Part shown: positions 6,001 through 49,442 of the stretch, one piece after another
Layout of the letters: each line of letters opens with the position of its first letter
Numbering within the stretch: the stretch's first letter is position 1
From: a virus
IMG/VR virus record: IMGVR_UViG_3300036668_000436
Span: 1 to 50,860 of that record
Length of the DNA: 50,860 bases
Reading direction: 5' to 3' (one strand)
Position numbers and translations under genes: made by a program
The notes under the pieces: model-generated
Database searches by the model: none
What the model saw: only the letters and a program-made list of their open reading frames with translations
What the model was told of the DNA's origin: nothing

Positions 6001-7560
6001 GTAGAAGCTATTAAAAAAATACTTGCTTCATTAAATCCTGATTTAAAATCTGACAATCTTGCCGGAGCAGCACTTAATGAAATATTGAATTTTATTACAG
6101 AAGAATCTGAAATTAACAAGTCTAAAAAGCCTATCTTTGATGAATTTACAATCAGAGAAGATTCTGCTTTTGAACAAGAAATATTAGATAAAATGGCTAT
6201 GGAACAAGCTTATTTAGATTCTATGGGAGGAGATCCTTCTCAAAATTTAAGTAATGAAGGTGGAAGAGCTTATATGCCTGCTTACCAAAGTGAGGATAAC
6301 TTAAATTATCAATTAGATACTCAAAATAATGTACAAACAGCTATAAAAGAATTAGATAACTATTTATTAAAATTTTTAAAACAATTTAATGTTAAGTCAA
6401 AAGAATTTGAAGATTTAAAATCTAAACTTGGTGTAAATGCTTTAGGAGCAACAGATACATTAAATAAATTAATTTGGTATGCTAAAAATAGAAATGAAGA
6501 AACTCTTCCAGAAGAAGCTGCACACATGCTTGTGATGCTTATGGGAGAAAAAAATGCTGATATAAAAGAACTGTTAGAAAACATAGAAAATTGGAATGAA
6601 TATTCTGACATTGAACAAGAATATTTACCTATTTATAAAGATAAAGAAAAAGTAAAAATAGAAGCTATTGGTAAACTAATAGCTAAATCTTTAGTTTCTA
6701 ATTATAAAACTAATGGGATAGATAAAACAAAATTAGAAAAAGCATTACAAGGAATTAAAGAATTTATTAAATCTATTTTAGAAAATTTAACTTTTAGTGG
6801 CATATATCAATACAATCAATCAATAGCAGATAAAATTGCAATTAATGTATTGTCAGGAAATAAAGATTATATAAATAAAGTAACAAATAATAATTCTAAC
6901 GTAAACGTAGAAAAAGAATTAAAAAACAACCCTTTAGCACAAAATATAATTAATACTTTTTCTTCTCCTAATATTAAAATGACAGGTTCATTAGCAATTG
7001 CAGGAACTGAAAACATAAGAAGACCTGAAGGACAAGGAGTGCATGATTTAGATTTTAAAGTAAATAGCTTTAAAACATACGAAAATGAAGTACTATCTAA
7101 AATACCTGAAAATGCAGTTCCTGCACACTACGGATGGCACAAAAAAGATTATTCTACATTTGCTTATGTAATACCAAAAGAAGGATATACTATAAATGTA
7201 AAAGAAAGAAAAGATGACTTTAGCAATGGTTGGATTACAAAGTATGATGTACTTGATAACCAAGGAAACGTTGTACAAAGAACTCAAGATTTAGTAGTAT
7301 CTGTTGATTTCTTTGTCTATAAAGATAATGCAAGTCAATTAGATTTTAATTATGAAGGTAAATTTATACCAGCATCTTTAGTTTATGAAGGAAAAATGTC
7401 TTTAGGAGGAAGAAGTAACCCGTATTTTTTTAGTAGAGATAAAGATCAAGAAGATTATGTAGTAAGAAATCCTAAATCTTTTATTGCTTTTGAAAATAGT
7501 ACATTTTATCAATTAGAACCTACAAATAATAAATTACCAGAACCTAAAAATTGCAATTAA
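1..7560 (+). CDS. Giant virion RNA polymerase / polyvalent protein (5' end outside window)
   Basis: The reading frame is open from base 1, so the true start lies upstream; the first ATG here is at 34 (2,508 residues from it). Counting from that ATG, residues 934-938 read DYDVD inside GIDYDVDKE, preceded by a GFLPPEVGD stretch; this matches the DxDxD catalytic loop of crAss-like phage virion RNA polymerases (phi14:2 gp66 type). The rest looks polyvalent: HEVVH at 1876-1880 is a zincin metallopeptidase motif, EEAAH near 2160 is a second degenerate zincin-like motif, and a GSLAIAGTE...HDLDF segment near 2316-2343 resembles a nucleotidyltransferase fold. By family knowledge the protein is packaged and injected and transcribes early genes. 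Later domains are assigned by motif only. It is followed one base later by the next giant gene. Confidence 0.75.
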   Translation, partial: KLHPFGDLNNVMKALTTGEARFTAKTMSKSFRDAGKNVSGVTVPNYITNKIDDLKRSALTDQQYINDLMDISITKNSLFLNLLKNDPEFAGKFGVDYLGLTSFKEFGKKANGFSNLRDLNAIDHDMVKVTGLQDIQQGKVNIKVGGFSMRIGRMFLPTMSDKKQMLMLSTGVFNFMEESEDAFTQGENGEKTFTPQLRELLYEQLVLPELTRIFNFHKNIKKTNNNNYDRAAQIFNFIPALNNIKDSQGIRLIKHLAVADETVTLEQIEELFKPSMMDVVEEVAHNLAKEKMEIWKPAFTKSNAKGEITSIPLFDTKYLNSGVGALNDKFENGTYDYVLNYMITNANSFTTLSGDPAMYSQNKLFPTDTPYDIQDDNTFITISSKMGTNLGKRLALMIAPGVSIANSKDQKYLQVFLRDETAADKEVAANAEYLIKLYHGQEGLEKAQPILDKYKEYKQVGNVDGYITERNKLKAMFKDISDYFNIDATDGQEYTTITEHLIVLEGMGRLNAEQVKTIGNKLLANEVLTKEDLKLVMQPIKPVYSGHILDKDQDMSRAMYIKSSSFPLIPQVTVGTKFDGLRLKLEEMEATHGKSVRASYGSANKVGAVTNPIDIFNPESLKNADMSMLEMSRNDFRIQQDVPYKSDSKAEKVSMGTQIFKLLMGDGMMDLDGFVIDGKDMNGRELNKYFAESFEKLMSIKRNNLFKELGLNEEGNPINEKDSILKLQELLKKEAIKRDYPIQDIKGLELDTLYDTDGNEYQEFRVPLWLSTNSNRYESLLNSIVSNRLMKHKIPGTSFVLGAETGFGFKEDLTGIDKSRVIYLDNWNGKELQGVSDNEGTFTAAQVFVPSKFKISDTELIDLFEGFNATTGDVSKAKYLKRNENGSLGLKEGMIAPELLNQFSFRTPTSSHVSGSTIEIAGFLPPEVGDLMIVPKNFTKQKGIDYDVDKETAYQLNYVVDKETGKMTVLTEKDKDNALKSLRNLLEKEDAAINSEFGLPSLEDFYMLLGSQLDEKTISDLQDQGASIQSKIDKIEAMYDEKLMENNFIKAHLAVYNNANPKVQKKINKVLSMSFAENQADFIEGLNEEGRKDAIAKELVIKGMSLAEAEAESNTANNSFTILSDEYQKGKMALGAAGKTAIGIYSNYVTFHALTQQTDNKLNLREKVGKEFKNKEITIGNRKSTGELGLEFTLDSGRTIAEVLAERQNTATDNEKAQILGRVNINKLTIGVDSLLAILGFDKDESGNSVSYTLLSQPILKQYVKKMEEGKGITATYQANLEKTIIVDLVKQFTNGEYTVEIGADFYNFKDKENNIVNLESLLTGQSLENGIKYNGENGAVQLAALAKFLELDQYAKNITAVQSLLNTNNLGKSIIEANHTYERLENFPSNKLIANVTDLIGDFMPIEDAVDGKPDGYTLIGDYYVKAKTPQGQIVVQGLTTGQKLWGDYFPFNDNNFKEIIREILAISSKESISDFRNIELKQEIVQEAKKYIYSWRKFGVFNERAGVERERLFMDRPNKTSLANYMNSIQSNETIKDNRLLSKFTYEVNTDGQPSLIKFNNGISDNFDEQYLYNSLAEMIIEDTQLPDWNGTPMTSRLLAQELITYAYTEGGVQEAVQFIKYVPVEYLSEVGIFDNGRFVPANEVLQRMNPKRNSNAFAGVFGLNNLVKGDSRTHIFAKQFMQHHPERATQYPPKEILAKFAFENSDRKSFILNAEESPKFITIRGKGKLKQDKYRLYQHVGASQYKEISVLGVTGMNEYEMGNDDAQSILRAKVEPTSGVNPTGVIIPITMQPTINIAEGDSVKEALQKVITGNFPKYKHLNLVAEAILPMIDDNTTLLFEDTRSIFGGEGAAGVYDQERNAIVIDTRNALPRGNESTSRTFIHEVVHAISYRELLKYYDQTGTTLQSGAPAHVIALHNVWTAFRRTFTETELKDITEKLALLKAKLPVQFTQREIDLGYGATNIFEFMSVAMDSDVFKTEMSKVKYDANYNIYEKFVEAIKKILASLNPDLKSDNLAGAALNEILNFITEESEINKSKKPIFDEFTIREDSAFEQEILDKMAMEQAYLDSMGGDPSQNLSNEGGRAYMPAYQSEDNLNYQLDTQNNVQTAIKELDNYLLKFLKQFNVKSKEFEDLKSKLGVNALGATDTLNKLIWYAKNRNEETLPEEAAHMLVMLMGEKNADIKELLENIENWNEYSDIEQEYLPIYKDKEKVKIEAIGKLIAKSLVSNYKTNGIDKTKLEKALQGIKEFIKSILENLTFSGIYQYNQSIADKIAINVLSGNKDYINKVTNNNSNVNVEKELKNNPLAQNIINTFSSPNIKMTGSLAIAGTENIRRPEGQGVHDLDFKVNSFKTYENEVLSKIPENAVPAHYGWHKKDYSTFAYVIPKEGYTINVKERKDDFSNGWITKYDVLDNQGNVVQRTQDLVVSVDFFVYKDNASQLDFNYEGKFIPASLVYEGKMSLGGRSNPYFFSRDKDQEDYVVRNPKSFIAFENSTFYQLEPTNNKLPEPKNCN

Positions 7561-7561
7561 T

Positions 7562-10500
7562 ATGGGATGTGAAGTAACATTTAAAACCTTGAAAGATGAG
7601 GTAGGAAATAAGGTTAAGGCTATCTTAGAAGATGGTCTTAGCCTTAACGGTAAAGAAATTAAGTATGGTAGACAAAGTAGAGAAAGATCATTAGATGTTT
7701 TTGTACCTTTTGATTCTATACACCCTAGTACTGGAAATCTCTGGTATAAAATGAAAGAGGTAGCCACTAAGTTAAACAAAGAGTATCTTGCAAAAACTTA
7801 TGGAACTGTAGCTACTGTTAAACAACATTCTGATGGTGTTACTGTAATTATACATCCAGCAGGTAAGTTAGTTAGAGATATGAATGAAAAAGAAAGACTT
7901 AAAATTAAGCCTACTTTTGAAAGCATTACTAATGAATATGAGTTTGAAGGAGAAATTTACCCTTCTGTAGAAGAAAGAAGTAAAGCAATGGATCGTAAAA
8001 AACAAAATTTTTTACCTATGGCTTTTGCTAGTACTGGACCAACCAGTTATTTTAATACTACTAACTATGCAGATTATATTGAACACAAAGAAAATTTACT
8101 TAAAAATGTAATAAATCGCATAGGTAATCTTACTTCTGGTAGAAAGTATGATAACTCATTAGTTATTAAAAAAGAAATAGCAGCTTTAAACAAGCTTAAA
8201 GAAAATCTTGAAATAGAAACTAATGAGCTATTAAACTCTACTAATATCTTGGCAAGAACTATGTCTGCTTTTAATTCAGACTTAGCTTTTATAGACAAAT
8301 TATTGTCAAGTCCCACTCCTTCTTTAGAAAATATTCATTATGCAGAAGGTATGGTAAATTATTTTGAACTTATATCTGATTATAGTAAAAGCAATAAAGA
8401 TAATTTATTTGTAGTTCCCGGAGATTCTTCTACAATTGAACCTGATGTTCTTGACGTGCTTAACAAACTTAAATTAGATTTAGATGATAAAAGAACAGCA
8501 ATATATAATGCTAAATTAAATTACCTTGTTCAAGCAATTGAAGCTTCTGAAAACCTTAAAAGTTTGTTTCCAAATATGCAAGCTGAAGAAATTAGAGCTA
8601 TTATTTTAAAAGACACTTCTGATATTGGAACTTTCTCTAAATTATTTGCAACTGTAGATAAAGAATTTGGAGGAGATGATAGTATTTTAGCTGAACTTAT
8701 TAGAATTGAATTAGAAAGATCTAGAAATATTATTAAGCCACAAGCTGCAACTATTAGTCAAAAAATTACTGAAATTCAAGATAAAGTAAAAAGTAAACTT
8801 ATTGAAAAAGGTAAAGGAATTACTTATGGTCTTGTTAATAAACTTTTTTCTGAAGTAACCTATGATATGTTTTATCAAAAAACAGGAAGAGGAAATAAAA
8901 CAGGAAACTTAATTAGTAAATTTTCTACTCAATGGTATAAAGATATTTCAAATATTGTCAGAAATAACAAAGAAGCTATGCAAGCTGCTTGGGCATTACC
9001 TGATGTTAGAGATATGCAAAAAGCTTTAAATGATGCTTTAATAAACAAATACAACTCTTTGAATGATAAAGTGGATTTTGTTCAACTTGGGAAATTACCA
9101 GAAATTATTAACAATCCAGATTTTCAAATATTAAATAAATATTTTAACCCTGCTGAAGCTGATTTATATAAACAACAACTTATTGATAGTATAGGAGAAT
9201 ATGCTTACAATAAAATGGTAATATCTCAAAAAGAAGCTCTTGAAGATTTTATGGTAGCTGTCGTCAATGAGAAACAACATTTATTAGATATTAATGGAGT
9301 TAGAAACTATGCAGATTTAGAACCTGGAATTAAAATGCATTTTGAAATATTTCAAAAAAGAAATAATCCTTTTGAATTTATTGAGTCTCATTTAAATGGA
9401 CAAGAAGGCAGAATAGATCACGTTTGGGGAACTTCTGGAAATCAATACCAATCACATTTAAAATATAATACTTACACTCCTAAAAAAGAAGTGAGTAGTT
9501 TTGATATGAACACTGGCACTTTTTATCAAGAAGATTCAGGATATTTTGATAAAGGTTTTGATGAAATTCAAAATGATCCCACTCTTTTAGAATTTTGGGA
9601 AATTATGGCTGAAGCTACAGAATACATGAATAGTGCTTTAACTGATTCTAACACTAATTTATCTCATACTTCATTACTTAAGATGAGTAAATCAATGACA
9701 GATATACTTTTTGATAGACAATTAGGTGTAATGAATAAAAGTGTTCATTTATTAAGTGAAACTGGTCAATCTTTAAAAAATATGATGTCAGCTAATGTTT
9801 CAAATAAAAGAGCTAATGATGTCACAGAAGTAAATAAAGCAGGTATTGAAACTGTTCAAGAAGAAGTAAAAATGCGATTTAAAACTTTTGACAGAATATT
9901 TGAAGTAAGGACAGGAAAACCTTTAGGGGAAAAAAGTTTGACAGATTTAAGTAAGATGACCTTAGATCAAAGAGATTTAATGGAGCAGTTAACAGGATTA
10001 AATCAAGCAGAATTAATTACAACGTATGGTAAAAAAGCTAATTTATCTAGTATTGTAAAAGAGTTTTTTACTAATCAAATAATGGAAGAGCAAACATTTA
10101 ACTTACCGGTAATGATGAAATCTTATCTTGATGTTGTAAGTGAATATAAAGCACAAAAAGCTTCTTTACCTAAAATCAACATATATAAAGATATATATGA
10201 CAATATTCAATTAGATAAAAATAGTAAAAAAGGTTTACTTGAAGATACTTTAGATTTAGCAGCTAGAATACGTAAAAAACAAAGATATAGTGGTATTCAA
10301 GACAAAAGAGTAAGGGGACAAGAAAGAACTCAAAATTGGATTAATAAGAATGTTAAAGGTGTTGAGGATAGTGAATATTGGGTAAAATTTGGTAAAAATC
10401 TTAATGAAAAGCAAAAAGAATATGAAAAAGCTACCGAAGCTTATCTTAAAAAATTAAAAAATGACCTTGCTGTAGCTACTTCTAAAGATGCTGAAATAGC

Positions 10501-12400
10501 TATAGAAAAAGAAATAGCAGATGTAGAACACGAATTAGATAATTTAGGTAGAGTTTACACAGGAGCTGCTATTTACAATGCAGTAATTAATAGATTAGGA
10601 GTATTTGTAGGGTTAGCTTATAATATACCTTCTCAATTTTTTAATAGGTATCAAGGTTGGCATCAAGGAATGATAAATGATACAGGAAGGTATTGGACAC
10701 CAGGAAACTTTTATGCTGCAAATGCTTTCATTAATAGGAAATTTATGGGTAAATTAGGTTTTAATAAACAAAAACAAGAAATCAGAAAAGTAAAACTACT
10801 TACTGAAAAAATGGGGTTTATTCAAGACAATACTAATGAATTAGATAGAGCAAGAAGAGAATCTGGAGTTACAGGTTGGACTAGAAAATTAAATCCTTTT
10901 TATCTTACTGAGTATGTAGAATGGCATAATCAAGTTCCACAAGCACTTTCTATTTTAATGGACCAAAGAATTATAAGTACTGAAGTTGATAGTGCAGGTA
11001 ATCCTATTGTAGTACCTATATTTGATGGAAATTCTCAATCTTTTCCTGCTCATACTATTAAAGATGGTAAATTAGTTCTTAAAGATGCTTTTAGAACACC
11101 AGAAAACATTGCTACTTGGGAAAGTTTTAGTAATGAAAAATATGCACAAGTAAAAGGTAAAATCACTGAAACTATTGCACTTTTAAATGGAGATTATACA
11201 AAAACAGGTAACACAGAAATTAAAAGTTATACATTAGGTAAAACTTTTATGATGTTTAAAACCTGGATGTCTAGCCAAATGTTTTTAAGATTTGCTAAAA
11301 ATCAAACTAGTGTAACACTTGGAATTAAAGATTTTGATGGGGCTTATGCAGGAGGACTTAGTAACGTAAAAACTAATGTTGCAGCTACTTTTGGTTTGTC
11401 TTTAGTTTTAGGTGTAGGAGCACTTACAACATTAGGACTTCCTTTAGCTGGAACTACTGTTGGAGGACTTGCAATTTACAGTGTTCTAAAAAACAGAAAG
11501 AAAAACAGAGTAAATGGACAAAACTTAGAAATGTTAAAACAACTTTATGGAATGGGAAAAGCTATTGTAAATAAAATGATAGGACTTCCTGTAAATACTT
11601 TATCTGGTAAGAATTTAATTAAAGCTCACACTTTTAAAGAACTTAATGTAACAGAAGCCGACAGACAAAATCTTAATTTTATTGTTAATGAGTTGGTAGC
11701 ATTACTTTGGATGTTACTTGTAAAAGTTATTATTAAAAATATGAAAGGAGATGATGAAGAAGAAGAACCTAAAACTTTAGACGGAAAAACTCCTAATCCT
11801 GCTTATTATACTCAAGAAGATAAAGATAGTAAATGGATTTTACTTGAAAATATGATTACTAGATTAATTCAAGAAGGTAGTACTTTTACTAATGCTGAAG
11901 CTTTATATAAATCTGCAACACCGGCGGGTATAGATAGTTTTTTTACTAAAGTAGCAGATTTAACAGTTGGACTATATAATGTATATCAAGGTTCAGATGT
12001 AATTACATCAGGAGATAACATAGGAGAATCTAAAACTGGCAATGCCCTTAAAAAGTTTGTAGTTCCAGGAATTATAAATGAATTTACAGATGGAAATTTT
12101 GATAGTGCAGGTTTTAGTAAGTATGAAAAAAAAGATTGGAATCCTAATGAATTTTTAGATAATGCTTATACAACAGACTATAAAAGAGATTTAAAAATTA
12201 TTGATGGAGAAAGAGCTGTATTAAGAGCTGAACTTACTTTATATTGGAATGAAGAGTATGAAATGAATGAAATAGAAGATACTTACACTAAAAAAACTTT
12301 AGAAGAAGAAATTACAAAAAGAATAAATGAAGAAGTAAATGCTACTTATCCTCGTAAAATTAGACTTATGTATGATGAAGATCAACAACTCATAGAATAA
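7562..12400 (+). CDS. Giant virion-associated protein, probable ejected cargo partner of the RNA polymerase
   Basis: This 1,612-residue protein starts at an ATG one base after the RNA polymerase stop, so the two are translated together. It is mostly charged, helix-rich sequence with coiled-coil-like stretches and no enzyme motif I recognise. Two hydrophobic segments lie near residues 1273-1308 (rich in Gly, Leu, Val, Ala) and 1370-1395 (LLWMLLVKVII), followed by an acidic DDEEEE patch. In crAss-like phages the genes beside the polymerase encode large cargo proteins stored in the tail or capsid and injected with it. A role in ejection or membrane passage is inferred from position, size and hydrophobic segments. 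It is the last gene before the terminator. Confidence 0.6.
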   Translation: MGCEVTFKTLKDEVGNKVKAILEDGLSLNGKEIKYGRQSRERSLDVFVPFDSIHPSTGNLWYKMKEVATKLNKEYLAKTYGTVATVKQHSDGVTVIIHPAGKLVRDMNEKERLKIKPTFESITNEYEFEGEIYPSVEERSKAMDRKKQNFLPMAFASTGPTSYFNTTNYADYIEHKENLLKNVINRIGNLTSGRKYDNSLVIKKEIAALNKLKENLEIETNELLNSTNILARTMSAFNSDLAFIDKLLSSPTPSLENIHYAEGMVNYFELISDYSKSNKDNLFVVPGDSSTIEPDVLDVLNKLKLDLDDKRTAIYNAKLNYLVQAIEASENLKSLFPNMQAEEIRAIILKDTSDIGTFSKLFATVDKEFGGDDSILAELIRIELERSRNIIKPQAATISQKITEIQDKVKSKLIEKGKGITYGLVNKLFSEVTYDMFYQKTGRGNKTGNLISKFSTQWYKDISNIVRNNKEAMQAAWALPDVRDMQKALNDALINKYNSLNDKVDFVQLGKLPEIINNPDFQILNKYFNPAEADLYKQQLIDSIGEYAYNKMVISQKEALEDFMVAVVNEKQHLLDINGVRNYADLEPGIKMHFEIFQKRNNPFEFIESHLNGQEGRIDHVWGTSGNQYQSHLKYNTYTPKKEVSSFDMNTGTFYQEDSGYFDKGFDEIQNDPTLLEFWEIMAEATEYMNSALTDSNTNLSHTSLLKMSKSMTDILFDRQLGVMNKSVHLLSETGQSLKNMMSANVSNKRANDVTEVNKAGIETVQEEVKMRFKTFDRIFEVRTGKPLGEKSLTDLSKMTLDQRDLMEQLTGLNQAELITTYGKKANLSSIVKEFFTNQIMEEQTFNLPVMMKSYLDVVSEYKAQKASLPKINIYKDIYDNIQLDKNSKKGLLEDTLDLAARIRKKQRYSGIQDKRVRGQERTQNWINKNVKGVEDSEYWVKFGKNLNEKQKEYEKATEAYLKKLKNDLAVATSKDAEIAIEKEIADVEHELDNLGRVYTGAAIYNAVINRLGVFVGLAYNIPSQFFNRYQGWHQGMINDTGRYWTPGNFYAANAFINRKFMGKLGFNKQKQEIRKVKLLTEKMGFIQDNTNELDRARRESGVTGWTRKLNPFYLTEYVEWHNQVPQALSILMDQRIISTEVDSAGNPIVVPIFDGNSQSFPAHTIKDGKLVLKDAFRTPENIATWESFSNEKYAQVKGKITETIALLNGDYTKTGNTEIKSYTLGKTFMMFKTWMSSQMFLRFAKNQTSVTLGIKDFDGAYAGGLSNVKTNVAATFGLSLVLGVGALTTLGLPLAGTTVGGLAIYSVLKNRKKNRVNGQNLEMLKQLYGMGKAIVNKMIGLPVNTLSGKNLIKAHTFKELNVTEADRQNLNFIVNELVALLWMLLVKVIIKNMKGDDEEEEPKTLDGKTPNPAYYTQEDKDSKWILLENMITRLIQEGSTFTNAEALYKSATPAGIDSFFTKVADLTVGLYNVYQGSDVITSGDNIGESKTGNALKKFVVPGIINEFTDGNFDSAGFSKYEKKDWNPNEFLDNAYTTDYKRDLKIIDGERAVLRAELTLYWNEEYEMNEIEDTYTKKTLEEEITKRINEEVNATYPRKIRLMYDEDQQLIE

Positions 12401-42164: not shown

Positions 42165-42294
42165 ATGCATCCCTACATATAGTTGTGTGATTTAACAATA
42201 ACATAATCTTTAATCGAATCTGCCTAAGCAATCTAGGTATAGTAAGAAATTCGTCAATTTCTATGGGTGCTACCTTTACACCATTATGCCACAA
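42165..42294 (-). ncRNA. Putative structured RNA with tRNA D-arm-like start
   Basis: No ORF fills this stretch. Reading the minus strand, GGTGTAAAGGTAGCACC (42,282 to 42,266) forms a 4-bp stem with a 9-base loop that looks like a tRNA D-arm and is preceded by GGCATAAT. It is followed by a 7-bp hairpin with a 4-base loop (42,245-42,262) and by TTCGATT, a T-loop-like sequence that lacks a matching stem. A 7-bp stem (TCACACA / TGTGTGA) closes further on. It is not a normal tRNA; the extent is approximate. Confidence 0.35.
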
Positions 42295-42431: not shown

Positions 42432-42546
42432 TGGAAAGAAAAGGACTCGAACCTTTGACCCTTATTACTGTTTTCATTCTTACGAATTTCGTGCCGTACG
42501 CCACTAACAGATTTTCTTTGGCTCTAACCAACTGAGCTATCTTTCC
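42432..42546 (-). tRNA. tRNA-like gene with an abnormally long anticodon region
   Basis: Minus strand: a perfect 7-bp acceptor stem (GGAAAGA / TCTTTCC), TA, a D-arm with GCTC/GAGC stem and AGTTGGTTA loop, and a T-arm AAAGG-TTCGAGT-CCTTT with conserved TTCGAGT. Between the D-stem and T-stem there are 64 bases instead of about 23, and no 5-bp anticodon stem can be built with a standard loop. CTGTT/AACAG could close the insert. The anticodon is therefore not assignable. CCA is not encoded. It may be intron-bearing, degenerate, or a tRNA mimic. Confidence 0.7.
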
Positions 42547-43099: not shown

Positions 43100-43123
43100 A
43101 CCCTTCAATTTAACTTGAAGGGT
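43100..43123. terminator. Small hairpin with flanking T-rich sequence
   Basis: Stem ACCCTTCAA / TTGAAGGGT, 9 bp, loop of 6 bases; T-rich on both sides. It follows the weaker hairpin at 43,179-43,204 that overlaps the stop of the 52-aa gene, so termination is doubled. Confidence 0.6.
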
Positions 43124-43201: not shown

Positions 43202-43360
43202 TTAAGAATGTAAACATCGAATTGCCACTACTTTTTGTGAGAATACTCCCCCAAATGGTGTGAACTTAACTTCGACTTCAAGCCTCTTACCCATAATATT
43301 TTTAAGAGTATTTGTAGATGCTACCAGATGACCTGTAAAAAACCTTTTTCTTTTTGACAT
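43202..43360 (-). CDS. Small basic protein (52 aa)
   Basis: ATG at 43360, TAA at 43202. The product starts MSKRKRFFTGHLVASTNTLKN and has a beta-rich second half (GKRLEVEVKFTPFGGVFSQKVVAIRCLHS). It is strongly basic at the N-terminus. A 23-base promoter-like motif lies 86 bases upstream (43,447) after a terminator, so it is an independent unit. Family unknown; the basic start suggests nucleic acid or host protein binding. Confidence 0.6.
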   Translation of the reverse strand: MSKRKRFFTGHLVASTNTLKNIMGKRLEVEVKFTPFGGVFSQKVVAIRCLHS

Positions 43361-43446: not shown

Positions 43447-43469
43447 GCTACAAATTAGTGAGGGTTTTG
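43447..43469 (-). promoter_or_regulatory. 23-base early-promoter candidate, copy a
   Basis: Plus-strand reading GCTACAAATTAG followed by TGAGGGTTTTG; as a minus-strand signal it begins CAAAACCCTCACT. It lies between the terminator of the DUF6283 gene (43,485-43,517) and the ATG of the 52-aa gene (86 bases downstream). Shared with four other copies (see findings). Confidence 0.6.
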
Positions 43470-43484
43470 CGATGATGAGTTGCA

Positions 43485-43517
43485 GAAAGAAAAACAAAAG
43501 ACAATACTGCCTTTTGT
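43485..43517 (-). terminator. Terminator of the DUF6283 gene
   Basis: Stem ACAAAAG / CTTTTGT, 7 bp with a 10-base loop, followed by a T-run (TTTTTC) in minus direction. It immediately precedes the motif copy a. Confidence 0.75.
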
Positions 43518-43560
43518 TTATGTTGTTTAGCAGCGTTTTGCCTGTATAAAAAGAAATATT

Positions 43561-43851
43561 TTAATTCTTATGATGATTTATAAAATCTTCTTCTGTATCA
43601 AAAACTACATTTTGACCTTTTAAATTTAAAGGTATATTATAATATTCTGCTGTAGCTACATACCTACTTCTTTCTTTAGAAACTATCATGTGTCCTGCAC
43701 ATTGTAATTTTTCATTAGTTTTATGACAAGTAAAAGCAAAAGCTTGTACAATTTCAGTGGCTCTTTCTTCTCCAAGCCAACCTTTTAAAGTATCTTTTTT
43801 GAAAGGGCAATGACTACAAGGATGTCTTTTGTGAAAAGTAAGTTCTTCCAT
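43561..43851 (-). CDS. DUF6283 zinc-binding protein (96 aa)
   Basis: The family cysteines are present: HPCSHCPFKKDTLKGWLGEER near residues 10-30, FTCHKT, QCAGHM, with C11, C14 (in PCSHC), C41 and C50 likely to bind zinc. The DUF6283 family is seen in phages and actinobacteria. Function unknown; possibly a small redox or RNA-associated adaptor. Followed by its own terminator. Confidence 0.75.
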   Translation of the reverse strand: MEELTFHKRHPCSHCPFKKDTLKGWLGEERATEIVQAFAFTCHKTNEKLQCAGHMIVSKERSRYVATAEYYNIPLNLKGQNVVFDTEEDFINHHKN

Positions 43852-43863
43852 TTGTTTAGTAAT

Positions 43864-44130
43864 TTATACTTCTAAAAATACGTGAAATACTAAGCCTAAC
43901 TCTTCAAATTGAATAGTATTTAAAAATTGAAGATTTACATTAGGCATTTCATAACCTGTACCTATTACATAAATAGTATGTAAATGTGCAAAAGACTCTT
44001 CAGTATCTATTATTGCCCACATAACAATTTTACCTTTTTGTACTTGTACAGAAATTATTTCAGCTTTTGCTGTCATACTAAGATTTTGCTTAGAACTATT
44101 TGATAATTGGTATTTAAATATTTTTTTCAT
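43864..44130 (-). CDS. DUF7352-like protein (88 aa)
   Basis: The lay-out KKIFKYQLSNSSKQNLSMTAKAEIISVQVQKGKIVMWAIID, IYVIGTGYEMPN and GLVFHVFLEV is that of a widespread small phage family annotated DUF7352, an all-beta protein. No biochemical role is known. It lies in the small-gene early cluster 12 bases upstream of the DUF6283 gene. Confidence 0.75.
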   Translation of the reverse strand: MKKIFKYQLSNSSKQNLSMTAKAEIISVQVQKGKIVMWAIIDTEESFAHLHTIYVIGTGYEMPNVNLQFLNTIQFEELGLVFHVFLEV

Positions 44131-44274
44131 AATTTAACAGTTTATATTTGTGTATGTGAGTTGAAAGGAGTAACTTCGCAACTGAAAGTTTCTTCAGATT
44201 CTTGAAAAGTCCACCCCCTAGAAATAAAGATAAATCTTTTCTTTGGTGCAACCTTTCTTTAACTACTTTTTGAA

Positions 44275-44306
44275 TAAAAAACCCCTTATTTGCCAAAATA
44301 AAGGGT
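44275..44306 (-). terminator. Intrinsic terminator
   Basis: Stem ACCCTTTATTT / AAATAAGGGGT (one mismatch, 4-base loop) and then TTTTTT on the minus strand, just after the stop at 44317. It rules out a real reading frame across it. Confidence 0.75.
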
Positions 44307-44316
44307 ATTTTTAAAT

Positions 44317-44727
44317 TTAACTGTCTCTAGTTTCTTTGTCATTCTCTTTTAAATCTACCTCATAACTTTTTAAAGGAAAACTAAAAATCTCTTTGAGAAT
44401 TTCGTGTGATTTTTGATCTAATTGTTTTTTTCTTAAATCAATAGAGCCTATTTCTTTGTTTTGCTGTACTTTTAGACTATAGTGTTCATTAAGTAAAGCA
44501 TCTAAAGTGGCTTTAAGTGCTATTATTGTATCAATATTTGAATAAAAAGTAACATTTTTTACACCCTTTTTTTTAGAATCAATTTTTTTTATTTTTACTA
44601 CAAGAGAAATTGCAATTTTTTTACCTTCATCATCTAAATGAATAGCTTTTACTTTAGTACCATTAGGCATTGTAGTAATTATTTTCTTGTCTGTAACTTT
44701 AGTTTCTAATCTAATTTCTGTAATCAT
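44317..44727 (-). CDS. Hypothetical protein (136 aa)
   Basis: Starts MITEIRLETKVTDKKIITTMPNGTKVKAIHLDDEGKKIAISLVVKIKK (beta-rich) followed by a long coil (IIALKATLDALLNEHYSLKVQQNKEIGSIDLRKKQLDQKSHEILKEIF) and a charged tail. No family recognised. It follows the ClpX-like AAA+ gene by 24 bases and is probably its partner; a substrate adaptor role is speculation. Confidence 0.6.
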   Translation of the reverse strand: MITEIRLETKVTDKKIITTMPNGTKVKAIHLDDEGKKIAISLVVKIKKIDSKKKGVKNVTFYSNIDTIIALKATLDALLNEHYSLKVQQNKEIGSIDLRKKQLDQKSHEILKEIFSFPLKSYEVDLKENDKETRDS

Positions 44728-44751
44728 AATAGTATTTGTGTTGTGAGTATA

Positions 44752-45588
44752 TTACTCTGATTTAAATGACAATTTGTTTTGAAAAGTAACTGCTTGAGTT
44801 TCTTCTTTGTTTAGTTTTCCACCTTTAATGAAATACTGATTTACAAGAGTATTTACCAATCTTGCTCCAAGAGTATTCATTTCATAATTGAGTTGAATAT
44901 GATGTCTAATGACAAAAATTGCTGATTCTCTGTCTACCTCTGCAAATAAAGCTAAATATGTAGTCAATAACGCAGACTCATCTAAAATTTGAAATAGATC
45001 TTCAAGACTTAGTTTTTTAGTTGTGTAAGTTAAACCTACTCTACCTAAAAATTCTGTTTTAATACCTATCTCCCTTAATCTATCTAAAGTAAGATCTGCT
45101 TCTCCATTAAAAGCTCCAGCAAATACAAACAAAGTGTTTTTCATTGAGATTGGTATAAATTTACCATAGTCTCCAAAAACAGATGCAGAACCTCCTTCAA
45201 GAACTTTCAAGAATTCATTTTGAACTCCTGTAGTAGATTCATGAGCAGAGCTATCATTAGAATTACCACTGATAAAGAGTTTATCGAACTCATCTACAAA
45301 AATAACTGTAGGCTTGTTACCAAATTGTAACATTGGAGATAAAGCTTTTGACAAACTATTACCAGATACTCCTTCTTTAGTCAATTGTGCAGCATTTATT
45401 TCTAAAAAACCTAGTTCATTGTACTCTGCTAATGAAGCAATAGTATATGATTTACTATTACCACTTTCTCCTGTTAATAGAAAATGAGGTCTTAATGTAG
45501 CATTAGAAGCTTTAAAAACTTCAAAGATTCTTCCTAAATCTTGAACAAGAACTTCTTGTCCAATGATGTTTAATTTCCCTTTTGACAT
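44752..45588 (-). CDS. ClpX-like AAA+ ATPase (278 aa)
   Basis: Walker A GESGNSKS (residues 40-47), Walker B VIFVDEFDKLF (D99, E100), sensor 1 NTLFVFAGAF, and arginine-finger region RLREIGIKTEFLGRVG that is very close to ClpX/ClpY (GLIPEFIGR). The protein has only the AAA+ core: no ClpX zinc-binding domain and no evident IGF loop for ClpP. It may act as a dismantling or protein-remodelling ATPase without the protease, or divert host machinery. It follows the 767-base region without genes. Confidence 0.75.
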   Translation of the reverse strand: MSKGKLNIIGQEVLVQDLGRIFEVFKASNATLRPHFLLTGESGNSKSYTIASLAEYNELGFLEINAAQLTKEGVSGNSLSKALSPMLQFGNKPTVIFVDEFDKLFISGNSNDSSAHESTTGVQNEFLKVLEGGSASVFGDYGKFIPISMKNTLFVFAGAFNGEADLTLDRLREIGIKTEFLGRVGLTYTTKKLSLEDLFQILDESALLTTYLALFAEVDRESAIFVIRHHIQLNYEMNTLGARLVNTLVNQYFIKGGKLNKEETQAVTFQNKLSFKSE

Positions 45589-46355
45589 AATTTAGTTATT
45601 TATTTGTTGTTTTTAATATCTAATAAAAAATACTTCGTGTGAAGTCACTTGTCAATTAACTATACAATTAAATGTTTAGTTAAGATCATACTGTTTAGCA
45701 CCCACAGCATTGCACTATGCCCGAAGACAACGATTTTCATCTGTCATGCAATTTGTTTGGGTCACGTGGTTAATTCAAAGAACTTTGGTAGGCTCGAATA
45801 TAATAACTACTTGCTGAGAACTCATTTTTGTTGTTTAGAACCAAATATTCTAACCTTATTTTTGACGGTATGCACTTTCTCAAGGTGTACAACAAATCTA
45901 ACATTACTGCTAGTATCTTTATGTAAATATGACGTTTGCTTTGTTATACTATTTCTAGCGCACTCTACGGTTCTTTTACAAAGGTTTAAATGTTTAACCT
46001 GTTTATTAAAAACTCTTTACCCAAATTTCAGTGGGATTATTAATGTAGATACAACCTTTTGGGGATCTCTTATGCACTTTTAGAGTAACATATCACTAGT
46101 AATATCTACAACAAACACAACTGCTGATACAGTTTTTATTCCTACCTTTAGACGTTACTTTTTAGCATTATTCTATCGTATTAATTGCTTGTCTTCAATC
46201 AAAGAGTTATTAAGGTATAAAAACTATTTACTTCAGGAGCTTCACCTGCCTTTTATTATACATGTAGCTTCTACTCTGCCTTTTTATGTGGTCGGATCAC
46301 TTGTTATATGCCTTCAATCACTACGGAGCTTTTTACTTTGTAAATAGTTTAATTT
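45589..46355. other. 767-base region without a convincing gene; structured
   Basis: Less AT-biased than the coding DNA and without a plausible minus-strand frame. A plus-strand open frame (45,649-46,083) starts with TTG and encodes a Cys-rich peptide unlike any neighbour; rejected. It contains an 8-bp inverted repeat (46,044-46,051 with 46,103-46,110), an 11-bp inverted repeat (46,221-46,231 with 46,340-46,350) and imperfect 24-base direct repeats around 46,236 and 46,265. A plus-strand TATTTTTG near 45,858 could be a host promoter -7 but has a weak -33. Confidence 0.6.
46221..46350 (-). ncRNA. Putative structured RNA closed by an 11-bp stem
   Basis: GTAAATAGTTT pairs perfectly with AAACTATTTAC about 110 bases away, and the minus-strand distal arm runs into TTTTTAT. 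The enclosed part has hairpin potential but no ORF. It may be an RNA with terminator-like 3' end following the 78-aa gene, or an extended 3' UTR. Extent and strand are inferred. Confidence 0.4.
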
Positions 46356-46592
46356 TTAAAGCCTATCTCCTTCTGTATCTCCAGATGAATCACCTCTTAA
46401 CATTTTTTCTGTTCCTTCTCTAGGTGTAAAACTTACAGTTTTTCCTGCTTTTAAATGTGAAGCTTCTTTAGTGTGAATGTATTTATTACTCACTGAAATT
46501 ACTTCACTACCTTTGAATTTAGTACCTTTTAAATTGGCTTCCAAATAATCTCTTTGGAATGCATTTGCGTTTCCGCCAGTTTGTTTTGACAT
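46356..46592 (-). CDS. Small hypothetical protein (78 aa)
   Basis: MSKQTGGNANAFQRDYLEANLKGTKFKGSEVISVSNKYIHTKEASHLKAGKTVSFTPREGTEKMLRGDSSGDTEGDRL: basic middle, acidic C-terminus, mostly disordered or small beta. Unknown family. The leader before the ATG has the local TAAATATT form. Last gene before the non-coding region. Confidence 0.55.
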   Translation of the reverse strand: MSKQTGGNANAFQRDYLEANLKGTKFKGSEVISVSNKYIHTKEASHLKAGKTVSFTPREGTEKMLRGDSSGDTEGDRL

Positions 46593-46629
46593 AATATTTA
46601 TTTTTACGATTATTTAATTTTTAAATAGA

Positions 46630-46678
46630 AATAACCTACTGCTTCAGTTGATACGTTGACAGTATCTAGTAGGTTATT
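46630..46678 (-). terminator. Long compound hairpin after the basic 69-aa gene
   Basis: An 11-bp perfect outer stem (AATAACCTACT / AGTAGGTTATT) encloses a second 5-bp stem (GATAC / GTATC) with the 7-base loop GTTGACA. It starts five bases after the stop at 46685 and may terminate transcription or shield the mRNA end. Confidence 0.65.
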
Positions 46679-46684
46679 CTATTA

Positions 46685-46894
46685 TTATCTACGTCTTTGA
46701 TTAAAATCTTTTTTTACAGATTGAGGTTGTAACTTCATCTTGTTTTTATAAGTAGATTTTTTACTTTTTGGTTGTTTAGCTACAAGTTTTACTTGTGACT
46801 TATGACTATTAGTAATAACTCTAAGAACTGTACGATGAATATCTTCTGTTGAAAAATCTATTCTACTTAATATTGCTAATAATGAAACTTTCAT
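46685..46894 (-). CDS. Small basic protein (69 aa)
   Basis: MKVSLLAILSRIDFSTEDIHRTVLRVITNSHKSQVKLVAKQPKSKKSTYKNKMKLQPQSVKKDFNQRRR is highly basic in its second half (about 20 Lys/Arg), like a nucleic-acid-binding tail. No family recognised. It lies three bases after the next gene's stop, inside the small-gene cluster. Confidence 0.6.
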   Translation of the reverse strand: MKVSLLAILSRIDFSTEDIHRTVLRVITNSHKSQVKLVAKQPKSKKSTYKNKMKLQPQSVKKDFNQRRR

Positions 46895-46896
46895 AG

Positions 46897-47121
46897 TTAT
46901 TTGTAGTTTGTAAGTTCTAATATTAGTTTAAGTTGTTGAAGATTGTGGATATTACCCACAAATCTAACATCTTTTGTTGTTTCATAAGCTATTACTGTAA
47001 CATTTTTTTCATTATAATCTACAACAAATTTAGTAGAAGGATTATATCCTGTAACATCTGATGTTGTTTCTAGTAATGTAAACTGTTTGCTTAACAGATA
47101 TTCTTTAATTACTTTTTTCAT
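46897..47121 (-). CDS. Small hypothetical protein (74 aa)
   Basis: I choose the ATG at 47121 (MKKVIKEYLLSKQ), which overlaps the upstream stop (TGA at 47118-47120) as ATGA; the longer frame needs a non-ATG start. The product is alpha/beta with VVDYNEKNVTVIAYETTKDVRFVGNIHNL. No motif recognised. Translational coupling to the membrane peptide upstream is likely. Confidence 0.6.
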   Translation of the reverse strand: MKKVIKEYLLSKQFTLLETTSDVTGYNPSTKFVVDYNEKNVTVIAYETTKDVRFVGNIHNLQQLKLILELTNYK

Positions 47122-47282
47122 TGAGATAGAAGGTAAAAAAGAATTGTCCAAAATAAGATTGCTGCTAAACCGCTTTTAACGGTACTGTTAAACGCTATTT
47201 TATTTCTTATTTCACCTAAGAGTGCTAATAAAAAAGTTAAAGACATAAAAAGTGCAAAGAAAAATACTAATGAATTTATCAT
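47118..47282 (-). CDS. Small two-helix membrane protein (54 aa)
   Basis: A 54-codon ATG frame, ending in TGA that overlaps the next ATG. Two hydrophobic helices (residues 3-22 and 37-52) flank a charged loop (GEIRNKIAFNSTVKSG). The ATG is preceded by TAATAACCAAA, the same leader as the gene at 47,730. It is a plausible inner-membrane peptide such as an early host-modifying or superinfection factor (inference). Confidence 0.65.
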   Translation of the reverse strand: MINSLVFFFALFMSLTFLLALLGEIRNKIAFNSTVKSGLAAILFWTILFYLLSQ

Positions 47283-47321
47283 GATATTTGGTTATTAAGA
47301 TTGGTATTTAAAAAAAAACAA

Positions 47322-47402
47322 TATTGACACCTCAAGGCTACAATCCTTGTGTTATGCACTCACAACAGTTACACATACTCATGTATTTAAAAGATGTCAA
47401 TA
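47322..47402 (-). ncRNA. Cloverleaf-like structured element
   Basis: An 8-bp perfect outer stem (TATTGACA / TGTCAATA) encloses about 65 bases with an arm CAAGG-CTACAAT-CCTTG (5-bp stem, 7-base loop) and two weaker hairpins (minus ATAC/GTAT and TGTT/AACA). It lies in the leader between the 107-aa and 54-aa genes. It lacks tRNA consensus bases. It could be an RNA leader, processed RNA or terminator-like element. Confidence 0.4.
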
Positions 47403-47406
47403 ATAG

Positions 47407-47730
47407 TTATTTAATTGGAACTAGGTAATTTAATTCATACTCAGTAAATGTGGAATCTTCATCAAGAATTAAATTTGATGTGTAAGCTGTAGCTGTAGAA
47501 ATGTATTCAGATAATTGTTGCTTGTCAAGGAAATTAATGACAGTAGTATCTCTTTCATTAGATACTGTAAGTCCATCTATAAATAGTATGTTAGACCCTA
47601 ATGGATCTATTACATAGATTTCAAGTACAGTATTTTTATGCATTGGTACGTCATTTAAAATAAATGGTGTAACTATTCCTAGTATGTATACAATAGGGAA
47701 TAATAAAAAGGAAATGAATGGATTTTTCAT
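47407..47730 (-). CDS. Membrane-anchored protein (107 aa)
   Basis: I start it at ATG 47730 (MKNPFISFLLFPIVYILGIVTPFIL), with an N-terminal signal anchor (residues 4-24) and a soluble beta-rich remainder (VLEIYVIDPLGSNILFIDGLTV). A longer GTG-started frame adds a low-quality segment and is not preferred. The leader TAATAACCAAA is the same as at 47,282. A 23-base motif lies 202 bases upstream. Function unknown; it would be on the periplasmic side. Confidence 0.6.
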   Translation of the reverse strand: MKNPFISFLLFPIVYILGIVTPFILNDVPMHKNTVLEIYVIDPLGSNILFIDGLTVSNERDTTVINFLDKQQLSEYISTATAYTSNLILDEDSTFTEYELNYLVPIK

Positions 47731-47932
47731 AAGTTTGGTTATTAGGGTTTTTAAATAAAAGCTATTAATGGGTTTAGTGGTATTTATGGCATTTTGAATT
47801 AGGAGGTGTAGGGGTGGCTGGGGTTTAAGTACACTTATTCTATACACTTACTGACCTAATTTAGGCAAATATGAGTTATTATATACATTTAACCTACTAT
47901 ATTTAGTAAATCAAGTAACATTGTACATAACT

Positions 47933-47955
47933 GCTCGATATTAGTGAGGGTTTTG
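47933..47955 (-). promoter_or_regulatory. 23-base early-promoter candidate, copy b
   Basis: Plus reading GCTCGATATTAG followed by TGAGGGTTTTG. It lies upstream of the membrane gene (202 bases before its ATG) and downstream of the 48,238 gene's terminator. Confidence 0.55.
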
Positions 47956-47989
47956 AGAGGATAATTTAAAACAAATTAAATAACTTTCA

Positions 47990-48063
47990 TTGTTCCCCAC
48001 CACTGTTTCCTTTAAAAAGAATAATTTTTTGTTCCTAACCACTGTTCCCTTTAAAAAAAATAA
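47990..48063. repeat. Two 35-base direct repeats, 39-base spacing
   Basis: Units at 47,990-48,024 and 48,029-48,063 begin TTGTTCC and end AATAA with the core CCACTGTT(T/C)CCTTTAAA; 31 of 35 positions match. No ORF in them. They may be binding sites or a duplication. Confidence 0.7.
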
Positions 48064-48189
48064 CTTACACACCGAGTTTCCTCAATGTGTAAGCTATATA
48101 CTTTCTAACCTATCTGTTTTACACTGGACTGAGCGCTTGTGATCAAATCAAGCTCTAGGTGTTGGAATAATTGGTGTCACAGAAAGTAT
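48064..48189. other. Structured non-coding stretch (two inverted repeats)
   Basis: An 8-bp hairpin (CTTACACA 48,064-48,071 / TGTGTAAG 48,086-48,093) is followed by a 9-bp outer stem (ATACTTTCT 48,098-48,106 / AGAAAGTAT 48,181-48,189) enclosing 74 bases with an arm GCTTG...CAAGC. No gene fits. Potential RNA; strand not decided. Confidence 0.5.
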
Positions 48190-48201
48190 TTAGATAAAAA
48201 T

Positions 48202-48230
48202 AATGTGTCCTACTTATTGTAGGACACATT
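48202..48230 (-). terminator. Strong intrinsic terminator of the 106-aa gene
   Basis: Stem AATGTGTCCTAC / GTAGGACACATT, 12 bp perfect with a 5-base loop, then ATTTTTAT on the minus strand. It ends eight bases before the stop of the gene at 48,238. Confidence 0.85.
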
Positions 48231-48237
48231 TTCAGGT

Positions 48238-48558
48238 TTAGTAAGACCTAGCAGGTGCATTTTGTCTTGCCAACACTCGGTATGCAGTGTATGAAGTTCC
48301 AGATTCTTTGGCATCTTTCTCTTGAGGTTCTTGTAAGTACAACAAATCGAAGCCAATTGGATCAGCATCAATTTTGGCAATTACTTCTCCGGGAACAGAT
48401 ACAGCCACACGCTTATCATTATTCCAATGTCTCATCCAATCTGTTGCAACTAATGTACCTGTTGCATCAGGTGCTTGTGCCACTTCTAGAGTGAACGCTT
48501 GTCCTGCTAATAAGATACCCTTTTGTACTAACACTTCTTTAATTTGAATTATATTCAT
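48238..48558 (-). CDS. Early protein with C-terminus ARSY (106 aa)
   Basis: The ATG at 48558 (MNIIQIKEVLVQKGI) is preferred over a longer non-ATG frame because two 23-base motifs lie 60 and 102 bases upstream of it. The product has an OB-like or small-barrel beta pattern (LLAGQAFTLEVAQAPDATGTLVATDWMRHWNNDKRVAVSVPGEVI) and ends LARQNAPARSY, the same last four residues as the 219-aa protein at 41,398. Its unit is bounded by promoter-like motifs and a strong terminator. Function unknown; a DNA-binding role is possible. Confidence 0.6.
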   Translation of the reverse strand: MNIIQIKEVLVQKGILLAGQAFTLEVAQAPDATGTLVATDWMRHWNNDKRVAVSVPGEVIAKIDADPIGFDLLYLQEPQEKDAKESGTSYTAYRVLARQNAPARSY

Positions 48559-48618
48559 TTTGTATTTTACGTTTCCACACTTGAGCAACGTATAAGCTTT
48601 GGTTATAATTTAATTCTT

Positions 48619-48641
48619 GCTAGTTATGAGTGAGGGTTTTG
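48619..48641 (-). promoter_or_regulatory. 23-base early-promoter candidate, copy c
   Basis: Plus reading GCTAGTTATGAG followed by TGAGGGTTTTG. It lies 60 bases upstream of the ATG at 48,558. Copy d follows 42 bases upstream. Confidence 0.6.
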
Positions 48642-48660
48642 TATACCTCAATGCTCAACA

Positions 48661-48683
48661 GCTAGTAATAAGTGAGGGTTTTG
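48661..48683 (-). promoter_or_regulatory. 23-base early-promoter candidate, copy d
   Basis: Plus reading GCTAGTAATAAG followed by TGAGGGTTTTG. It is 102 bases upstream of the ATG at 48,558 and 19 bases after the end of the 56-aa gene. It is a close tandem with copy c. Confidence 0.6.
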
Positions 48684-48702
48684 AGACCAACACTGTATGC
48701 CA

Positions 48703-48873
48703 TTATACTACTTTGTTGATACTCATGAGTACCAAACATATCAAGATGCAGTCAAGAACTAGAGTGACAACAAGTGTAGACACAAGTTGCTTCCAAGTTC
48801 TTTTCATACATGATATAACAATAAGACTAACCATAGGTAATAATATTAAGTTAAACAATAGATTACAATACAT
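48703..48873 (-). CDS. Small membrane protein (56 aa)
   Basis: ATG at 48873 (MYCNLLFNLILLPMVSLIVISCMKR) gives 56 residues with two hydrophobic helices (4-22 and 31-50) and a central KRTWK. A longer frame from 48966 runs into the motif copy e. It is the first gene of the minus block, 57 bases after that motif, so probably among the earliest phage proteins. Function unknown. Confidence 0.6.
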   Translation of the reverse strand: MYCNLLFNLILLPMVSLIVISCMKRTWKQLVSTLVVTLVLDCILICLVLMSINKVV

Positions 48874-48930
48874 ATTATATTGAGCCAGGAAAAAGATATT
48901 TCCATAAGTGACCCAGGGGGACTTGTAATC

Positions 48931-48953
48931 GCTAATTATAAGTAGGGGTCTTG
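48931..48953 (-). promoter_or_regulatory. 23-base early-promoter candidate, copy e
   Basis: Plus reading GCTAATTATAAG followed by TAGGGGTCTTG; the most divergent copy (two changes in the core). It lies 57 bases upstream of the ATG at 48,873 and next to the divergent plus-strand promoter. Confidence 0.55.
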
Positions 48954-49039: not shown

Positions 49040-49070
49040 TTTGGTAGTATAAAAAATTTGTTTACCTTTG
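49040..49070 (+). promoter_or_regulatory. Bacteroidota-type promoter of the rightward block
   Basis: -33 TTTG at 49,040-49,043 and -7 TACCTTTG at 49,063-49,070 (consensus TAnnTTTG) with a 19-base spacer, the preferred spacing. The expected start is near 49,076. It is the only strong such match upstream of a plus-strand operon and sets the translation start of the next gene at 49,107, because an earlier TTG lies inside the -7 element. Confidence 0.8.
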
Positions 49071-49106: not shown

Positions 49107-49442
49107 ATGGAACAAGAACTAATAAGTATGTATGGACCTAGAACAGCTCCTTACTATCCAAATTATTATATGACAGATATTGATAATGTAATAATTATAA
49201 AAAGTACTTTAAGAGAACTTTATAATGGAATCTATTATGATATTTTATTACAAAGATGTTTTAAATATGATAAAGTTGAAATAGAACTTACAGTAAATTT
49301 TAAAATACATGTAAAAACAGATTTAATAATACTGTTTGCTAAAGATGTATATCTTAGACAACATTTAGCTGTTTTAGACCCTAGTTATAAACCTTCTGAT
49401 AATCAAGAATCAGAAGCAGATAGATTAAAAAAATTAGTATGA
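49107..49442 (+). CDS. Hypothetical first gene of the rightward block (111 aa)
   Basis: Starts at ATG 49,107 (MEQELISMYGPRTAPYYPNYYMTDIDNVII), 30 bases after the predicted transcription start; a frame beginning at TTG 49,068 would lie inside the promoter. The product is soluble with a C-terminal charged tail (SEADRLKKLV). No known family. Its stop overlaps the next ATG by 4 bases. Confidence 0.65.
   Translation: MEQELISMYGPRTAPYYPNYYMTDIDNVIIIKSTLRELYNGIYYDILLQRCFKYDKVEIELTVNFKIHVKTDLIILFAKDVYLRQHLAVLDPSYKPSDNQESEADRLKKLV

Follow-up and report, generated by a model that had tools for sequence, protein, structure and literature searches.

Conserved single-orientation motifs are candidate early promoters for a crAss-like virion RNA polymerase

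The linear IMG/VR virus record IMGVR_UViG_3300036668_000436 (50,860 bases, 29% G+C; analysed whole and hereafter called the window) carries five copies of a 23-base motif ahead of minus-strand genes, together with part of the gene for a giant virion RNA polymerase (vRNAP). The plus strand at its left end encodes, besides the C-terminal part of this giant protein, another large one; the minus strand from 12.4 to 49.0 kb holds replication and small early genes, and plus-strand genes resume from 49.1 kb. By the giant protein, the nearest named relatives are phages of Flavobacterium psychrophilum such as Fpv3 (41% identity over ~2,000 amino acids (aa)), in which the gene order is the same; a helicase used as a probe for relatives gave no confirmed loci. 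Fpv3 is among the crAss-like phages in PMC10136315; as to membership of Crassvirales, the Fpv3 record is not placed there and the window spans only about half a genome. The polymerase and the five motif copies (P1 to P5, all candidate promoters) lie as follows, with distances in nucleotides (nt) from the 5′ end of each motif (ORF, open reading frame).

1..7560, plus strand: C-terminal part of a giant crAss-like vRNAP, open at the contig end, with catalytic DYDVD at 2833-2847
48931..48953, minus strand: P1, candidate promoter that opens the early cluster, CAAGACCCCTACTTATAATTAGC, 80 nt before ATG 48873 (56-aa ORF)
48661..48683, minus strand: P2, CAAAACCCTCACTTATTACTAGC, 125 nt before ATG 48558
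48619..48641, minus strand: P3, CAAAACCCTCACTCATAACTAGC, in tandem with P2, 83 nt before ATG 48558
47933..47955, minus strand: P4, CAAAACCCTCACTAATATCGAGC, 225 nt before ATG 47730
43447..43469, minus strand: P5, CAAAACCCTCACTAATTTGTAGC, 109 nt before ATG 43360 (52-aa gene heading the replication block)

Read on the minus strand, the direction of the adjoining genes, the five copies have the form CAAAACCCTCACTNATTNNNAG. A sequence-only reading of the window had proposed them as early promoters for the injected polymerase, all in one orientation, with four identical cores and one carrying two changes, at 57, 60, 86, 102 and 202 bases from minus-strand ATGs. Each of these observations was confirmed: all five copies lie where claimed, four contain exact TGAGGGTTTTG, the copy at 48931 has TAGGGGTCTTG, and the distances are correct when counted from the inner end of the motif (57 to ATG 48873, 60 and 102 to ATG 48558, 202 to ATG 47730 and 86 to ATG 43360). 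The bare 11-base core is only mildly enriched in the window (25 matches with up to two mismatches vs 16.5 expected), which indicates that the longer motif carries the signal. With up to three mismatches, the full 16-mer recovers the five copies, four of them exactly, and two weak matches (2.3 expected), and a profile from relatives scores the five copies at 37.6, 35.9, 35.8, 29.9 and 18.6 bits, the next best position in the window reaching 8.0. A k-mer search of noncoding DNA made with no prior motif ranks this one first.

The search of related phages that the sequence-only reading had called for, naming equal occurrence in coding regions as the result that would count against it, came out in its favour. 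An exact scan of IMG/VR with the 22-base pattern returned 35 stretches from 28 records, and these 28 viral contigs, including Fpv3, hold 103 matches within two mismatches, compared with 6 for a reversed control. All matches fall on a single strand in 27 of the 28 contigs, and 77 of 83 unique sites lie outside same-strand ORFs, against 48 expected. The median distance from these unique sites to the next ATG is 187 nt (476 nt for random intergenic positions), and many of them are followed by an ATG at 44-49 bases. Their consensus comprises a T-rich stretch from -28 to -18, CCTC at -8, CAAAACCCTCACTNAT at 0-15 followed by T, and then AG at +20/+21 and YATTAAT. The 'GCTA'-like start described earlier is thereby refined: over the 83 sites it reads AG(C/T)A on the minus strand and forms a second block of conservation, 20-21 bases into the motif. 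Across 257 gigabases of bacterial and archaeal genomes there were 32 single-copy matches, at the chance level of ~30 calculated from the pattern alone under uniform base composition.

In the Fpv3 record the identical motif occurs at 0.06-0.45 kb and again at 83.7, 87.8 and 88.4 kb. A single sequence, present at both ends of this linear record (L184 2923, L170 36), accounts for the copies at 0.06 and 88.4 kb, so that either the record ends overlap or the genome has terminal redundancy. The layout is then that of the window, with copies clustered alongside the strand switch and a further one 4-5 kb away. Around the five copies, the window contains the following features.

48703..48873, minus strand: 56-aa early ORF after P1
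48238..48558, minus strand: 106-aa early gene after the tandem P2 and P3, no PHROG match
47407..47730, minus strand: 107-aa early gene after P4, no PHROG match
43202..43360, minus strand: 52-aa gene following P5; the relative G019 has a similar ORF
48060..48097, minus strand: terminator-like hairpin upstream of P4, with a second hairpin at 48202-48230
43492..43519, minus strand: terminator-like hairpin directly upstream of P5, with a similar hairpin ahead of this promoter in G019
43100..43123, both strands: bidirectional terminator-like hairpin that separates the 52-aa gene from the replication genes
48885..48929, minus strand: conserved element directly after P1, ATTACAAGTCCCCC...TTTTTCCTGG, from a seven-genome alignment
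49040..49070, plus strand: host-type promoter TTTG-N19-TACCTTTG, set back to back with P1 and 36 nt before ATG 49107, for the genes of the opposite strand
49107..49442, plus strand: first opposite-strand gene

The earlier suggestion that the copies follow terminators is clear for P4 and P5 and less clear for P1-P3; the hairpins at the former pair, and the T-rich stretch at -28 to -18, are consistent with transcription starting immediately after a terminator. In relatives the P5 copy is also present (TTTGTAGCA) ahead of a similarly short ORF. P1 is a distinct, recognised variant (CAARACCCCYACT plus the conserved downstream element) that recurs at the same place in G019, G001, G009, G004, G020 and Fpv3; downstream of it, seven genomes have ATTACAAGTCCCCC, ~20 bases and then TTTTCYGGG. 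A small CTTG-AGA-CAAG lies at the 5′ edge of P1.

The sequence-only reading had also placed a virion RNA polymerase gene in the window, and this gene is indeed crAss-like, its 5′ side being cut off by the contig end. An AlphaFold2 model of residues 601-1400 (800 aa, 30 sequences, pLDDT 76.5) matches the phi14:2 virion RNA polymerase 6vr4 with a Foldseek E value of 2.5e-16 and a VIA Z of 21.0 over 584 residues, the next best Z being 6.7, which identifies the two-barrel fold; searches of PDB sequences with the single sequence or an RNA polymerase (RNAP) profile gave no match, and only the fold search succeeded. The catalytic D-F/Y-D-x-D motif is present as DYDVD at residue 934 and as DYDID, DYDVD or DFDID at the same point in nine relatives. 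In relatives the polymerase belongs to a frame of 4,250-4,614 aa, so its catalytic part is joined to an N-terminal region of great length, as it is in phage P23-45. Packaging of the enzyme in the virion and its injection would be in keeping with the label of its family (PHROG 16227), 'virion structural protein'. Directly downstream lies a 1612-aa protein (7562..12400, plus strand; PHROG match phrog_14721); in the crAss001 record a 'putative RNA-polymerase subunit' is annotated adjoining that phage's own RNAP gene.

A homologue of the polymerase occurs in every motif-bearing record of at least 88 kb, and the motif changes as the polymerase diverges. We collected 80 loci with polymerases 26-67% identical and searched whole genomes of a sample of them for the motif, whose form shifts with polymerase distance while its copy number, strand and place are kept. 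The main form CAAAACCCTYACTNATTNNNAG extends from 67% to about 47% RNAP identity, and Fpv3 has the identical motif in the same layout at 41%. At ~40% we found CAAAACCCCCACTAATTNTNAG (G041), CAAAACCCCCACTAATYNTTGG (G042), YAACCCYMWCTAATYWTTGA (G043) and CACAGCCCNNACTAATNATTG (G044), with patterns that include CAAAACCCCCACTAATT...(A/G)G and CACAGCCCNNACTAAT..TTG; at ~36%, CAATACCCTAACTAATTCYTGG (G050; pattern CAATACCCTAACTAATTC.TGG); at ~33%, CAANACCYTCACTARTTTATG (G057); and at ~29%, TAAACTCTCATCCAATTGCAGG (G073). Since phages inherit their genes together, this co-drift fits the polymerase as reader of the motif without singling it out. A simple k-mer search, which is not proof of absence, found no such motif in phi14:2, crAss001, G060, G061 or G072.

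Host-type signals are found on the other strand. For the first opposite-strand ORF, 11 of 13 genomes (0.8 expected) have the Bacteroidetes -7 element TAnnTTTG within 75 nt, compared with 2 of 81 early sites (2.3 expected), bearing out the earlier remark that the motif does not resemble the host -33/-7 consensus. Over the whole window the host promoter pattern is at chance level and is informative only by its position relative to the first opposite-strand gene. The plus-strand genes would be started by the host enzyme.

Together, conservation in 28 contigs, strand agreement, intergenic placement and upstream terminators, along with the lack of the host -7 element and the chance-level occurrence in bacterial genomes, strongly support a phage-specific early promoter, repeated in one orientation before early units in phages that carry a vRNAP. 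Because the signal recurs in dozens of related phages and drifts with the polymerase, it is very probably the start signal of that polymerase, and we put the probability that the five copies are early promoters of the injected enzyme at roughly 0.78. That the vRNAP itself would read the motif gains indirect support from its presence in every near-complete motif genome, from the change of the motif with divergence, and from the lack of T7-like RNAP and sigma-70 in the genomes tested. Several points weigh on the other side. Promoter activity, start point and reading enzyme are all inferred from sequence; co-drift tracks phage phylogeny, so that another co-inherited protein could be the reader; and a further polymerase could lie in the missing half of this 50.9-kb fragment, near-complete relatives being without a T7-like one. 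A terminator-like hairpin sits between P5 and the replication genes, and no comparable motif was found in phi14:2, crAss001 and several distant relatives, making the link to the sole experimentally studied enzyme less than direct.

Among other explanations, the motif might be a promoter read by host RNAP that is redirected by a phage-encoded or injected factor, either a sigma-like protein or an activator. The length and bipartite build of the motif would suit such a factor, as would the many small early proteins and the large injected partner at 7562-12400 with no assigned function; we nevertheless consider this unlikely, given that the host -7 element is at chance at the sites, that sigma-70 region 2 was found in none of nine genomes tested (ten control genomes were positive), and that early transcription in phi14:2 is rifampicin-resistant (PMC10136315). 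Less likely still is a binding site with no role in starting transcription, such as a replication-origin iteron, a repressor operator or a partition site. Repeated 23-mers clustered near a strand switch are what one might expect of such sites, yet the spacings are irregular (42, 270, 686 and 4486 bases) rather than the regular repeats of iterons, one copy lies far from the cluster, the single orientation matches transcription throughout, terminators lie directly upstream, and many sites fall at the 44-49-base distance from an ATG noted above.

The least probable reading, which we regard as close to refuted, is a T7/T3-type promoter served by a single-subunit T7-like RNAP. It draws on a resemblance in sequence: the main form has AACCCTCACTNA in common with annotated T3 promoters, the minus reading sharing AACCCTCACTnA, with a local score reached by none of 5,000 column shuffles, and in the relative G043, 930 there are 15 bases in common with the T3 consensus. 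Profile-to-profile comparison with T3, T7, SP6 and K11 promoters had at first given no signal, its score being poorly scaled. Against this reading, no polymerase of the T7-like family (PF00940) was found in any motif-family or relative record tested, the T3 control scoring 1.7e-110; T3's initiating GGG is absent, with no GGG-type start after a TATA/TAAA block; and the likeness is weak or absent in lineages G041, G044, G050 and G073 of the same family. The likeness was moreover spotted after the fact, and for these reasons it is probably convergence or chance. An N4-style DNA hairpin promoter was rejected, the sites showing no excess folding.

Under the favoured scheme of promoters for the injected polymerase, a single-chain, two-barrel vRNAP of the crAss-like (phi14:2 gp66) family would enter with the DNA on infection and recognise CAAAACCCTCACTNATTNNNAGYA in duplex DNA, either by itself or together with a cargo protein that is injected alongside it. 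Leftward transcription would begin at or just past the conserved AG block, P1-P4 expressing small early genes and P5 the head of the replication block. The units would be short, with intrinsic terminators ending the upstream ones (hairpins ahead of P4 and P5 and behind P5's 52-aa gene), and transcripts from P5 may or may not read through the hairpin at 43123-43100 to reach the replication operon. Opposite-strand genes would start from the host-type TTTG/TAnnTTTG promoter; as this stands back to back with P1, we propose that two polymerases divide the genome by strand. More tentatively, and with rather more doubt than confidence, we suggest that a sigma-free, two-barrel, single-chain RNAP alone recognises a long contiguous duplex promoter as T7-type enzymes do, having converged on a nearly T3-like core, and that enzyme and promoter have co-diversified across crAss-like phages into a series of matched polymerase-promoter pairs.

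If the favoured scheme is true, promoter recognition by an unusual two-barrel polymerase becomes directly testable, with a defined 22-base sequence, a start-point prediction and a series of diverged promoter-polymerase pairs with which specificity could be mapped. It would also provide, for uncultured genomes, a simple rule by which early genes, transcribed by the phage polymerase, could be told from genes that the host transcribes. Such a test is practical, as Flavobacterium phages of the Fpv3 type can be cultivated.

Elsewhere on the minus strand of the window, 42432-42546 has an Rfam tRNA match (44.6 bits) spread over 115 nt, amounting to a tRNA with a ~40-nt insertion that ARAGORN did not call, and a second tRNA-like start follows near 42291. 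A 278-aa protein (44752-45588; phrog_5534) is encoded by DNA ~65-71% identical to genes of unrelated phages annotated as ClpX-like or Clp protease, and the 766 bases at 45589-46355 contain no minus-strand gene within the dense early block and have no Rfam match.

Several known systems can be compared with these candidate promoters. In phage N4 the promoters are hairpins, and a T7-like vRNAP reads them; as proposed for the present sites, they serve an injected RNAP ahead of early genes, and they differ from these sites in folding, P1 alone having the small CTTG-AGA-CAAG. T3 class promoters share the AACCCTCACTnA core and the direction of transcription, and are set apart by their GGG start and T7-like RNAP and by the loss of the likeness across the present family. 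We found no paper on the promoters described here in the open literature; the original phi14:2 Nature paper was outside this scope, and an earlier description there is possible. In P23-45, a giant two-barrel RNAP is likewise fused to a virion protein, and a conserved motif before the earliest genes is common to relatives carrying the fusion; the same kind of argument was made there, with Cappable-seq and ChIP-seq tying the conserved pre-early motif to a virion RNAP fused to the tail tape protein (PMC10770324). P23-45 is, however, a Thermus phage with an AT-rich motif and a second phage RNAP, whereas the core here is C-rich (ACCCTCACT) and the remaining genes show host-type promoters. The phi14:2 vRNAP (gp66; 6vr4, Crassvirales) has the same fold (Z 21 over the 584 aligned residues) and the DxDxD catalytic motif, although sequence identity over the model is only 16-17% and the window's motif was not found in that phage. 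Early and replication genes lie on one strand in phi14:2 too, and structural and RNAP genes on the other, and its vRNAP is reported to transcribe the early genes, both regulatory and replicative, in a rifampicin-resistant manner (PMC10136315). In broad terms, the scheme proposed here agrees with the model published for crAss001 and phi14:2 (PMC10136315) and with that for P23-45 (PMC10770324).

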